A stretch of DNA of 64,000 nt from positions 2,666,001 through 2,730,000 of the forward strand of contig NZ_CP115396.1 of the NCBI RefSeq assembly GCF_027625995.1, given 5' to 3'. Both the position numbers and the translations under genes were made by a program. A model generated the notes under the pieces. That model did not search any database. It was given only the letters and a program-made list of their open reading frames with translations, and had not been told where the DNA came from. The stretch comes from Hymenobacter yonginensis. GTDB lineage: Bacteria; Bacteroidota; Bacteroidia; Cytophagales; Hymenobacteraceae. Below, piece by piece: positions 23,004 to 62,411 of the stretch (its first letter is position 1; every line of letters begins with the position of its first letter).

Positions 23004-23025
23004 GCCGGGGAGGCGTAAGCTAAAC

Positions 23026-23119
23026 GCACGTCATGCAGAGCGGAGCGAAGCATCTCGCCAGTGTGGTAGAATCAGTTACCACACTGGCGAGATGCTTCGC
23101 TCCGCTCTGCATGACGTGC
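23026..23119. repeat. GTCAT-type hairpin, perfect 43-bp arms
   Basis: Arms 23026-23068 and 23077-23119 are perfect reverse complements over 43 bp with an 8-base loop; outer bases are GCACGTCATGCAGAGCGGAG. It lies between pyrG and yidC. The inner bases ACCACACTGGCGAGAT are shared with the element at 59598, whose outer arm is different. Confidence 0.9.
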
Positions 23120-23258
23120 TTTTTCACTCATTTCTCCTGCCAAAAACGCCGACCGGCAAATATTAACCTGACAAGTCCGACCTTTGCGGCAGCGTTGCCG
23201 GATTTTTGCGGGCGGCGCCCACTCACGCATTCCTCTTTTTGCCCTCATCTTTACCTGA

Positions 23259-27782: not shown

Positions 27783-28463
27783 ATGAACCTGACCTACTAC
27801 GGCCATTCCTGCTTCCTGCTCGAAGCCGGTGGCAGCAAAGTACTCTTCGACCCCTTCATTCGGCCCAACCCGCTGGCCAAAGACGTGGACGTGGACAGCA
27901 TCGAAGCCGATTTCATCCTGCTCAGCCACGGCCACGGCGACCATGTGGCTGATGTGGAGGAGATTGGCAAGCGCACCGGCGCCGAGCTGGTGGGCATGTA
28001 CGAGGTGCTGGCCTGGTTTGAAGCCAAAGGCCTGAAAGCCGATACCAAGATGAACCTGGGCGGCACCGTGCAGCTGCCCTTCGGCACGGTGCAGATGGTG
28101 GCCGCGGCCCACTCCAGCTCCATGCCCGATGGCTCCTATGGCGGGCTGGCGGCCGGCTTCGTGGTGAAAGCCGAAGGCAAGACCTTCTACTTCGCCGGCG
28201 ACACCGCCCTGACCTACGACATGAAGCTCATCGGGGAGCGGCACACGCTCGACTTTGCCATCCTGCCCGTAGGCGACCATTTCACGATGGGCGTAGACGA
28301 TGCCCTGGTAGCCGCCGACTGGACCGGTGCCAGCAAAGTCATCGGCATGCACTTCGACACCTTCCCGCCCCTGGCCGTCAACCACGACGAAGCCAAGGCC
28401 AAGGCTACGGCCGCCGGCAAGGAGTTGCTGCTGCTGGCCGTGGGCGAAACCATTTCCTTTTAA
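27783..28463 (+). CDS. UPF0173 metal-dependent hydrolase (MBL fold)
   Basis: A 226-residue metallo-beta-lactamase-fold protein of the UPF0173/UlaG-like group, cytoplasmic. It starts MNLTYYGHSCFLLEAGGSKV with the first conserved His, then has the zinc motif LLSHGHGDHVADVEE, the acidic FYFAGDTALTYDM and the final MHFDTFPPLA with a ligand His. Length is standard. The natural substrate of UPF0173 is not known. The ATG at 27783 is clear; the upstream frame belongs to the divergent promoter. The gene ends just before an AT-rich repeat block that separates it from parA. Confidence 0.9.
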   Translation: MNLTYYGHSCFLLEAGGSKVLFDPFIRPNPLAKDVDVDSIEADFILLSHGHGDHVADVEEIGKRTGAELVGMYEVLAWFEAKGLKADTKMNLGGTVQLPFGTVQMVAAAHSSSMPDGSYGGLAAGFVVKAEGKTFYFAGDTALTYDMKLIGERHTLDFAILPVGDHFTMGVDDALVAADWTGASKVIGMHFDTFPPLAVNHDEAKAKATAAGKELLLLAVGETISF

Positions 28464-28466
28464 AAA

Positions 28467-28558
28467 ATTATGAATTATGAATTATGAGAGCTGAATTGGA
28501 CTGCCCAGGCACCCGGTTTTCAACTCATCATTCATAACTCATACTTCATAATTCTCTC
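28467..28558. repeat. AT-rich heptamer repeat block before parA
   Basis: Three copies of ATTATGA on the left and a looser set (CATTCATAACTCATACTTCA) on the right, ending AATTCTCTC, form an imperfect inverted repeat across the whole gap. It ends seven bases before the parA ATG and contrasts sharply with the GC-rich surroundings. Confidence 0.7.
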
Positions 28559-28564
28559 AACCAC

Positions 28565-34790: not shown

Positions 34791-34828
34791 CGCTTGCTGA
34801 CTGAATAACTTGCTGACTGAATAAGTAG

Positions 34829-34921
34829 AACGTCATTCCGAACGGAATGAGGACTCTCGCTGGTCTGGTAGAAGCATTTACCCAGCCTGTAAGATTCCTC
34901 ACTCCGTTCGGAATGACGTTC
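34829..34921. repeat. GTCAT-type hairpin (TCCGAACG subtype)
   Basis: Outer arms GAACGTCATTCCGAACGGAA and TTCGGAATGACGTTC, with a more degenerate middle. The same outer arm occurs at 59598. It lies between apaG and the next plus-strand gene. Confidence 0.85.
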
Positions 34922-34950
34922 TTTGCCTTTGGTATCAACTACACTCTGTT

Positions 34951-59584: not shown

Positions 59585-59597
59585 ATGAATAATGGCA

Positions 59598-59686
59598 GAA
59601 CGTCATTCCGAACGCAGTGAGGAATCTCGCCAGTATAGTAAATCACCACACTGGCGAGATTCCTCACTGTGTTCGGAATGACGTTC
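59598..59686. repeat. GTCAT-type hairpin (TCCGAACG subtype)
   Basis: Outer arms GAACGTCATTCCGAACGCAG and its complement ending GGAATGACGTTC, inner stem TCTCGCCAGT and ACACTGGCGAGA. Outer arm as in 34829, inner stem as in 23026. It lies between tamB and ftsX. Confidence 0.88.
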
Positions 59687-59697
59687 TTTCTCTGATT

Positions 59698-59722
59698 TAC
59701 CTTTGCGCCTTTATTACCTTTG
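59698..59722 (+). promoter_or_regulatory. Two -7-like elements before ftsX (TACCTTTG twice)
   Basis: TACCTTTG occurs at 59698-59705 and again at 59715-59722, seven bases before the ftsX ATG. Both fit TAnnTTTG. No -33 element is clear for either. Confidence 0.4.
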
Positions 59723-59728
59723 CCCTCT

Positions 59729-60622
59729 ATGGCCCAACCCCGCCCGACCCGCAAGAAGAAGCTAGGCAGCTACCCGCATACGATGGTAGTGTTCAGCATC
59801 ACGCTGGCGTTGCTGGTTATCGGGCTGTTCGGGCTGCTGCTGATTCATGCGCACAAGCTCTCCAACCTTGTGAAGGAGAACATCGAAATGCAGGTGTACC
59901 TGGACCGCGACCTGCCGCCCACCGAGCTGCTGCGGCTGCAGCAGGACTTTGCCCGCAAGCCCTACATCGCGCAGCGCGACGGCCAGGCTCAGGTGCGGTT
60001 CCTGAGCAAGGAAGAAGGCGCCAAGCAGTTTATCGAACAGACCGGCGAAGACTTCCAGCAGTTTCTCGGCGACAACCCGCTGCGCGACGCCTACATTCTG
60101 AAAATCAACGCCGAATATTCCGATTCGCTGCAGATGGGCCGCATTGAGCGGGAGCTGAAAGCCGAGCCGGGCGTACACGAGGTGCAGTACGTACAGAGCC
60201 TCATCAGCTCCATCAACCAGAACGTACGCAAGCTGAGCCTGGTGCTGCTGGGCTTTGCCGTGGTGCTGACATTCGTGGTGACGGTGCTCATCAACAATAC
60301 CATCAAGCTGGCCCTCTTCTCGCAGCGCTTCCTCATCCGGAGCATGCAGCTGGTGGGCGCTACCTCGTTTTTCATTCAGAGGCCCTTCCTGAACCGCGCC
60401 ACTTGGCAGGGCCTCGTGAGCGGTATTCTGGCGAGTTTGCTGCTGCTGGCGCTGCTCCAGTACGCCTACCTACAAGTAGCCGACCTGCGTGCCCTCCGCG
60501 ACGACCGCCTCATCGGGGGCCTGCTGCTGGTGATGGTGGCCCTGGGCTGCGGCATTGGCTTTTTGAGCTCCTACCGCGCCGTGCGCAAGTACTTGGGCAT
60601 GTCGTTGGATGAGCTTTACTAA
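59729..60622 (+). CDS. ftsX: Cell division protein FtsX
   Basis: FtsX, 297 aa, the permease-like half of the FtsEX complex that controls peptidoglycan hydrolases at the septum. After a basic cytoplasmic stretch (QPRPTRKKKLG) come TM1 (MVVFSITLALLVIGLFGLLL), the periplasmic loop (about residues 45 to 165, IEMQVYLDRDLPPTELLRLQ) and three further TM segments (VRKLSLVLLGFAVVLTFVVT, the AS-LLLLALLQYAYL region and LLLVMVALGCGIGFL). ATG 59729 is preferred to a TTG at 59720. ftsE is elsewhere. It stands first in the ftsX, DUF3098, uppP, truB, ribF order, with one insertion. Confidence 0.93.
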   Translation: MAQPRPTRKKKLGSYPHTMVVFSITLALLVIGLFGLLLIHAHKLSNLVKENIEMQVYLDRDLPPTELLRLQQDFARKPYIAQRDGQAQVRFLSKEEGAKQFIEQTGEDFQQFLGDNPLRDAYILKINAEYSDSLQMGRIERELKAEPGVHEVQYVQSLISSINQNVRKLSLVLLGFAVVLTFVVTVLINNTIKLALFSQRFLIRSMQLVGATSFFIQRPFLNRATWQGLVSGILASLLLLALLQYAYLQVADLRALRDDRLIGGLLLVMVALGCGIGFLSSYRAVRKYLGMSLDELY

Positions 60623-61065
60623 ATGGCTTAATTGTTTAATTGTTAAATGGTTGAGCCGAACGAAAATAACGAACGTAAATTTCTGCGGCTGGCAGACATT
60701 GAGTGTTACCGGATCAGCTTCGCGCTAAGCAATGCGGTGTGGGACTGCGTATTGGCGTGGCCGCCTCTCGCGCAACACACGGTTGGCGAGCAGTTTGTCC
60801 GGGCCGTAGACAGTATTTCGGCCAATATTGCGGAAGGTTTTGGGCGGTACAGCAAGAAAGACAAAATCAGATTTTACCGTATTGCACGTGGGTCGCTTTA
60901 TGAATCCTTGGACTGGAATGAAAAAGCCAGAGTGCGCCAGATTATCACATCAGAAACCTATACCTATCTGTTCACTGAGCTACAACGGCTACCAAAGTCC
61001 ATCAATTCGCTTATCAAATACACCGACTCTCACCTAACCATTTAACAATTCAACCATTAAGCCAT
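60623..61065. mobile_element. S23 cassette bounded by 30-bp inverted repeats
   Basis: The arms 60623-60652 and 61036-61065 are inverted and identical at 28 of 30 positions (ATGGCTTAAT and AATTGTTAAATGGTT are the constant parts). They begin immediately after the ftsX stop and end on the second base of the DUF3098 start codon. The left arm contains the S23 start ATG and the right arm its stop TAA. The arms are A+T rich in a GC-rich region and have internal 7-8 bp near-repeats. No transposase or target duplication is visible, so mobility is inferred. Confidence 0.55.
60647..61045 (+). CDS. Four-helix-bundle S23 family protein (23S rRNA intervening sequence type)
   Basis: A 132-residue basic protein of the S23/four-helix-bundle family (TIGR02436, pfam 23S_rRNA_IVP). 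The family signature is plain: FVRAVDSISANIAEGFGRYS, then KKDKIRFYRIARGSLYESLD, and a last helix near YTYLFTELQRLPKSINSLIK. Relatives are encoded in intervening sequences of 23S rRNA genes in Leptospira and Coxiella, and a related protein (Avd) partners diversity-generating retroelements; a stand-alone role is unknown. Here there is no rRNA gene or reverse transcriptase nearby. Codon use is A+T richer than the neighbours. Start and stop both lie within the flanking inverted repeats. Confidence 0.9.
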   Translation: MVEPNENNERKFLRLADIECYRISFALSNAVWDCVLAWPPLAQHTVGEQFVRAVDSISANIAEGFGRYSKKDKIRFYRIARGSLYESLDWNEKARVRQIITSETYTYLFTELQRLPKSINSLIKYTDSHLTI

Positions 61066-61369
61066 GCAAGAACCCCGCTTCGCCTTCGGGCCCCGCAACT
61101 ACCGCCTGATGTTCGTGGGCCTGGCCGTGCTGGCGGCCGGCTTCATCACGATGACGCTGGACACCGCCGACTACGGCGAAGGATTCCTGGGCATTACGCT
61201 CGGCCCCATTCTCCTGATAGTAGGCTTCCTGATTGAGTTCTGGGCCATTATGGCCAAGCCCGGCGGCCCTGCCCCGGTAGCGCAGGACGCTGCCACCCGC
61301 GAAACGCTGGCCCAGCAGCCTACGCCGGCCGCGCCGGCCACATACGTCGCTCCTACCTATAAGCGGTAG
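61064..61369 (+). CDS. DUF3098 membrane protein
   Basis: A 101-residue protein with two transmembrane helices (YRLMFVGLAVLAAGFITMTL and ILLIVGFLIEFWAIMAK) joined by a short loop with acidic residues (DTADYGEG), preceded by the FAFGPRNYR box typical of DUF3098. The C-terminal 35 residues are Pro/Ala rich. The family is restricted to Bacteroidota and regularly follows ftsX, so a division or envelope link is plausible; function is not known. Its ATG overlaps the right inverted-repeat arm of the S23 cassette, 18 bp after the S23 stop. Confidence 0.85.
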   Translation: MQEPRFAFGPRNYRLMFVGLAVLAAGFITMTLDTADYGEGFLGITLGPILLIVGFLIEFWAIMAKPGGPAPVAQDAATRETLAQQPTPAAPATYVAPTYKR

Positions 61370-62272: not shown

Positions 62273-62411
62273 GTATAGAGTAGCAAGTAGTGAGTACTGA
62301 GTATTCTGACGCGAGTCGGCAACCCTAAATGCGGTGCTAGCACTCAACACCAACTTTTCAGTACCAGCCACCAAATACCGACTACTCAGTACCAAATACT
62401 TAATACTCCCT
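62273..62411. repeat. A+T-rich short-unit repeat before truB
   Basis: AGTAGTGAGTACTGAGTATT on the left and the loosely complementary AAATACCGACTACTCAGTAC and CAAATACTTAATACTCC on the right form an imperfect inverted repeat across the whole gap, ending at the truB start. It uses units of about seven bases (GAGTACT, AGTATT) and resembles 28467 in placement. Confidence 0.6.

Follow-up and report, generated by a model that had tools for sequence, protein, structure and literature searches.

An S23 gene between inverted word arrays at an ftsX-DUF3098 junction in Hymenobacter: a probable small dispersed element

The cassette between ftsX and DUF3098

The window analyzed here is a 64,000-nt stretch of DNA from Hymenobacter yonginensis. 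Near its right end, the spacer between ftsX (59720..60622, plus strand, listed from the first TTG; PF18075 and PF02687) and a DUF3098 gene (61064..61369, plus strand; PF11297) is filled by a cassette occupying 60623..61065 on the plus strand, as delimited by its sequence and by alignment of its arms. The cassette contains an S23 gene (60647..61045, plus strand) for a four helix bundle protein of 132 amino acids, which scores 83.1 bits against PF05635 (cut-off 33.8) and 90.6 bits against TIGR02436, confirming the identity given in the initial annotation. The gene is enclosed by two arms of 30 nt each, complementary at 28 of 30 positions and separated by 383 nt. The left arm (60623..60652, plus strand) consists of the 8-nt words ATGGCTTA, ATTGTTTA and ATTGTTAA followed by ATGGTT, so that the words are spaced at 8 nt, and the right arm (61036..61065, minus strand) is its inverted copy.

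The ftsX stop codon, TAA at 60620-60622, is followed at the next base by the left arm, which holds the S23 ATG (60647-60649), while the S23 TAA (61043-61045) lies within the right arm. These features, along with the 28 matches between the arms, had been described at the outset and hold by their coordinates. The right arm had also been said to carry the DUF3098 start codon; this is so only in part, as just the A and T of that ATG (61064-61066) fall in the arm, at its edge. The proposal of a protein-coding rather than an rRNA setting stands as well, since the cassette is located between the ftsX and DUF3098 ORFs and not in a 23S rRNA helix. Could the arms have arisen by chance? The 15-mer AATTGTTAAATGGTT, with up to two mismatches, has three matches in the 64-kb window, all of them in the cassette arms, where dinucleotide shuffles lead one to expect 0.01; the arms are therefore not a matter of chance.

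A gene whose start and stop codons both lie inside complementary arms brings RNA processing or regulation to mind. In such a scheme the arms would pair in the operon transcript, and RNase III would cut the stem and so free or destroy the S23 message, or else S23 would regulate mRNAs through word hairpins. Words and protein would then co-evolve as site and regulator, and mobility would be secondary. The predicted RNA fold does pair the left and right arms of the window cassette; according to passages of PMC4990558, RNase III cuts out IVS RNA, whose ends lie in an inverted-repeat stem; and there are cassettes whose two neighbors, for example cas6 and cas4, are co-directed. Against the scheme, shuffled sequences are as stable in their predicted folds as the stretch taken whole (z -0.43), so that no exceptional RNA stability of the element was found, and some S23 genes are antisense to both neighbors. 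Moreover, word hairpins are found in spacers of a genome with no PF05635 match (see below), where regulation by S23 cannot explain them. We consider an RNA-level role unlikely as the main explanation.

Inverted arms and word families of S23 genes

Is the package peculiar to the ftsX-DUF3098 site, as first supposed? We examined 110 S23 loci, the window and 109 others of the genus, chosen mainly by score order among the matches listed (one, L158, was dropped because of a short flank), and took the best inverted match between the 300 nt upstream and the 300 nt downstream. The flanks match as inverted repeats at a score of at least 20 in 95 of the 110 loci, with a median of 25; some of the longest printed alignments extend into coding sequence and are partly spurious, for which the controls allow. 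Among these controls, non-cognate flank pairs reach the same score in 6.6% of 2717 cases (median 13), flanks that were reversed only in 3 of 110, DUF3098 genes in 2 of 30 and random windows in 26 of 399. Direct, as opposed to inverted, flank matches are also present, at 26 of the 110 loci. The printed arms are degenerate tandem words of 7-8 nt, and they fall into many word families. Thus the arrangement is not a peculiarity of one junction; the view that an S23 gene and its arms behave as a single package is upheld, both by these counts and by the way the words track the S23 subfamily.

That tracking was followed in a set of 142 loci, which includes Bacteroidota loci beyond the genus. An arm score of 14 is passed by 119 of these loci, with a median arm length of 32 nt, and the 119 arms have a self-identity of 0.66 at a lag of 7 and 0.65 at a lag of 14, whereas the value is 0.37 at a lag of 8 and stays within 0.21-0.31 for the rest of the lags between 3 and 13.

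Do related S23 genes carry related words? Pairs of loci were taken from different genomes and had no flank homology by blastn or blastp, and words were counted as shared at a score of at least 18. Sharing was found for 3.1% of 6169 pairs with S23 identity below 0.3, rose over the four bins between 0.3 and 0.7 (5.2% of 1018, 5.5% of 1409, 16% of 655 and 41% of 181 pairs), and reached 70% of 70 pairs at identities of 0.7 or more, a contrast attained by none of 2000 permutations. When each of the 47 site components was represented by a single locus (200 draws, score of at least 17), words were shared by 40% of pairs at an identity of at least 0.55 and by 7% below 0.4. S23 pairs from the same genome with less than 50% identity share words in 4 of 79 cases. 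In these sequence comparisons, then, related S23 copies tend to bring related words, a pattern suggesting that the gene and its words move together as one element.

One might suppose instead that S23 is simply an old operon gene inherited vertically with its neighbors, and that its arms belong to the host genome's own stock of spacer repeats. It is true that some sites retain S23 across many species, the largest site component comprising 28 of the 142 loci. The arms, however, track the protein and not the genome, similar words recur at unrelated sites, and S23 is absent from the junction in the closest relatives by FtsX, as detailed below. Ordinary vertical descent strikes us as very improbable.

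By eye, words of the AATTGTT/AATGGTT type can be recognized for the window's own subfamily in H. busanensis, in H. gummosus, in other Bacteroidota families and in H. caeli, whose locus is at a site other than ftsX-DUF3098. The automatic arm score is barely above, or is below, the reversed control in six of the eleven loci of this subfamily (L166, L171, L172, L173, L174 and L176); it clearly exceeds that control only in L168 and in L169, where the word is a variant. A word code common to different phyla was not found: 450 of 500 nulls reach the value observed for cyanobacteria versus Bacteroidota. Within 13 cyanobacterial loci there is no overall coupling (Spearman 0.098, p 0.39); their five closest pairs share words, and the sixth and seventh do not.

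Word counts over whole genomes (81 genomes) bear on the same issue. GGGTCTT occurs 4-71 times in genomes with the cognate S23 subfamily versus a median of 0 in those without it (p 1.4e-4), TTAGCTG 3-211 times versus 3 (p 2.0e-4), YAGTTGY 19-165 times versus 5 (p 3.6e-5) and GAATTAT 2-127 times versus 1 (p 6.1e-6), in tests that ignore kinship, use subfamily labels set after the arms had been seen, and count in the cassettes' own arms. For mismatched combinations of word and subfamily, ten of twelve gave p above 0.1 and two gave low values, 0.0027 and 0.024. There are also word-rich genomes without the cognate S23: G080, G032 and G049 have 42, 31 and 21 copies of GGGTCTT, and G017, G076 and G009 have 119, 116 and 102 copies of TTAGCTG.

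Junction history and hairpins without S23

How did the cassette come to occupy this junction? Searches by tblastn of about 1.5 kb on each side of DUF3098, with the window and H. busanensis as positive controls, found S23 at none of 30 loci from 30 of the 81 genus genomes. Two named species, H. busanensis and H. gummosus, do carry S23 at this ftsX-DUF3098 junction. The earlier statement that the gene cluster is normally without S23 is accordingly right for all 30 genus loci examined and wrong for these two species. Spacers at the other ftsX-DUF3098 junctions, about a dozen of them judged from their last 200 nt, hold other hairpins, including hairpins of TAGTTGTTAG words, or are short.

An FtsX tree of 33 rows groups the window with G001 and G003 (97/93). 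In the nearest rows, those of G001, G003 and G008, the junction is without S23. Far from the window in the tree, H. busanensis pairs with H. gummosus (100/99), the latter having a long branch and an unsure exact place. The tree requires the S23 label to have changed twice or more. The window FtsX protein is identical to that of G001 across 300 columns, and the flanking DNA of the two is 87-100% identical per block, mostly above 90%. The entire spacer and the first DUF3098 codons, including the start, differ, the G001 spacer being a different hairpin without S23. The spacer has been replaced with no target duplication seen, in a comparison that lacks a clean empty site. These relationships fit a recent gain of the cassette in the window lineage, at a spot that has been used elsewhere too; alternatively, S23 may have been lost from the junction in the relatives.

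Another site, next to a thiolase gene, has S23 by motif in 11 of the 70 genomes examined (of 81), with three word families among them, and one of the 11 S23 genes has a stop inside. Here G068 has a hairpin of TTAGAAC-type words and no S23, and the remaining genomes have other hairpins, short spacers or, in a few cases, longer unmatched spacers. At two conserved gene junctions (L315-L384 and L056-L085), unlike hairpin types alternate between close species, as if spacers had been swapped whole.

The arm word itself is not confined to S23 genes. With up to three mismatches the 30-nt window arm is found in 9 of the 81 genus genomes; the nearest genome, G001, has ten copies, whose printed stretches mostly look like short intergenic hairpins, and has no match to PF05635 at E 0.001. 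These ten copies rule out the arm word as an S23-only feature. The initial annotation had set the occurrence of arms without S23 at many loci against a cassette; such arms do occur, and the cassette idea stands all the same because the words follow the S23 subfamily. Word hairpins without S23 were also seen in an automatic survey that covered 400 kb of G004 and another 400 kb of G001, with a period filter that was too strict and a G001 count inflated by runs of N.

The window has further hairpins of its own. The uppP-truB spacer (62278-62400) holds inverted AGTAGTGAGTACTGAGTATT-like words without S23 (score 17), which resemble the words of another S23 subfamily, and a hairpin of GAATTATGAATTATGAATTAT-like words, again without S23, lies at 28459-28560. 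GC-richer palindromic hairpins of the type ACGTCAT...TCTCGC, a different repeat family, are located at 23022-23123, 34827-34922 and 59597-59687, and also occur in the G001 and G004 stretches.

Hairpins that do without S23 invite the thought that S23 is a mere passenger, sitting inside word hairpins that are generated by slippage and template switching during replication, or moved by other enzymes such as the RAYT-like Y1 transposases. Spacers do turn over among many unlike hairpins, and Y1_Tnp matches are present in 58 of the 81 genus genomes. Inverted flanks scoring at least 20 are seen at 16 of 23 Y1_Tnp loci (L391-L409), compared with 17.4% of mismatched pairs. The repeats printed for these loci, however, are REP-like palindromes rich in GC and not heptad words. 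RAYT-like transposases were rejected as movers of the words on the ground that their printed flanks carry these other palindromes. More generally, if S23 were a passenger, neither the word load nor the tracking of S23 subfamily by the words, at different sites and in different genomes, would be explained, except for a passenger that homes to a single word family. We think it a slim prospect, somewhat slimmer than RNA processing.

Known systems and a proposed element

The S23 protein itself offers few hints. A domain search recognized PF05635 alone, with no transposase, no Y1/HuH and no catalytic domain. Among solved structures, the chain closest to it in sequence is 2gsc (E 2.5e-6), which is XCC0516 of Xanthomonas campestris. 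A low-confidence model of the window protein (mean pLDDT 60), for which four sequences were used, consists entirely of helices. PF05635 matches occur in 67 of the 81 genus genomes by profile search. For 64 pairs from different genomes with at least 65% identity, a set that excludes pairs saturated at synonymous sites, including those of the window, the median dN/dS is 0.068 and none reaches 0.6, so the protein is under purifying selection. Avd of the diversity-generating retroelements belongs to the same protein fold family as S23; unlike those systems, the locus shows no reverse transcriptase in a scan of five ORFs, one of which is S23. The cassette likewise differs from an insertion sequence or MITE in that no transposase gene is recognized in its protein.

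By gene content, the 23S rRNA intervening sequences, e.g., those of Coxiella and Leptospira, are supported as the closest known relatives. In both cases an S23 gene lies between complementary ends able to form a stem; the present cassette differs in being outside rRNA, between protein genes, in its subfamily-linked words and in the existence of gene-less hairpins. Passages of PMC4990558 describe the Xanthomonas S23 protein as a homopentamer, report that tandem heptamers, two or three depending on the strain, precede the Coxiella S23 start, and record an older idea that the IVS ORF belongs to a mobile element.

Tandem 7-nt words in spacers, some of them in inverted pairs, are familiar from the cyanobacterial STRR, and the 119 arms, with their peaks at lags 7 and 14, are alike in this respect. 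They are unlike STRR-like heptamers in that the word families here are tied to S23 subfamilies, and the window's own words are at 8 nt. Portions of PMC4692102 and PMC4679880 describe intergenic heptamers, GGGAATC in Xanthomonas and TAACTGA in Beggiatoaceae, with 70 inverted pairs in Xcc and 75 in Xac and a preference for four units; PMC4692102 adds, in one such portion, that the Xanthomonas and Nostoc heptamers are generally not associated with mobile elements. The term S23 is absent from both texts, and "four helix" from that of PMC4679880. XCC0516, the 2gsc chain, belongs to a species for which PMC4692102 has a passage reporting heptamer repeats. Judged by title and abstract opening, none of the papers listed, which did not extend to those under subscription, connects an S23 gene with word repeats; the Coxiella heptamers of PMC4990558 are the one exception.

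A further parallel is the RAYT (TnpA-REP) system, where, according to sections of PMC8266576, the gene is flanked by inverted repeat copies, many copies are gene-less, and protein groups have co-evolved with repeats. The cassette gene, like a REPtron gene, sits between inverted copies of a dispersed repeat, and the repeat type follows the protein type, within Bacteroidota and not across phyla. The differences are a helical S23 with no Y1/HuH match and arrays of 7-8-nt words in place of one palindrome. By this analogy the S23 element would work like a RAYT/REP partnership without being a member of it.

On balance we think it probable, with appreciable room for doubt, that an S23 gene, together with the inverted word array on either side of it, makes up a single genetic element, which is small, dispersed and probably selfish. 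The sequence data support a unit of gene and arms that moves and co-evolves, and the best reading is of a small mobile element of which the gene-less word hairpins would be derivatives, with a RAYT/REP-like logic and no recognized transposase. Each S23 subfamily would have its own 7-8-nt word family, with about four to five words per array, in inverted orientation, marking both ends of the element; the gene-less hairpins of the same words would be its non-autonomous relatives in intergenic spacers. Why should words and subfamily be coupled? The simplest cause, we infer, is that S23 reads the words, binding its own as single-stranded DNA or RNA. It might then help copy or place word hairpins, and so would drive the spread of the words. 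One may speculate that a pentameric ring, given arrays of four to five words, wraps the single-stranded arrays.

A broader proposal, which we hold tentatively and put at somewhat below even chances, is that S23 proteins are partners and drivers of short-word repeats in several phyla. They would be helical proteins that form rings, are not nucleases and read words of 7-8 nt in tandem, and the rRNA intervening sequences would be a special, rRNA-dwelling form. The pertinent passages of PMC4990558, PMC4692102 and PMC4679880 leave open both the function of S23 (IVP) and the spread of heptamers. If each S23 subfamily reads its own words, the two become one directly testable question, and the rRNA intervening sequences would be one landing place of a much wider element.

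S23 genes are also found on plasmids. A search of plasmids with an S23 query gave 29 records, mostly cyanobacterial, and 15 of 16 regions from these have cognate flank scores of at least 18 (median 27), compared with 38 of 240 mismatched pairs; the Nostoc HK-01 plasmid locus (L304) has no arms. A seventeenth plasmid locus, from another search (Pseudanabaena PCC 7367, L437), also has none, so that 15 of the 17 plasmid loci tested have the inverted-arm layout. One plasmid S23 gene lies between nrdB and nrdA, antisense to both, and the window S23 itself matches two plasmid records. The single S23 type searched against phage records, that of L001, found no match. Viral contigs, of only putative viral origin, have 22 loci encoding S23 relatives, and inverted flanks scoring at least 20 occur in 14 of these 22 versus 3.8% of mismatched pairs; several of the loci are near-copies, and several of the matches look like coding sequence. 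In cyanobacteria, S23 genes between word arms also lie within CRISPR-Cas operons (L300, L303 and L305), in two records at cas6/cas4 and in one at cas10/cmr3.
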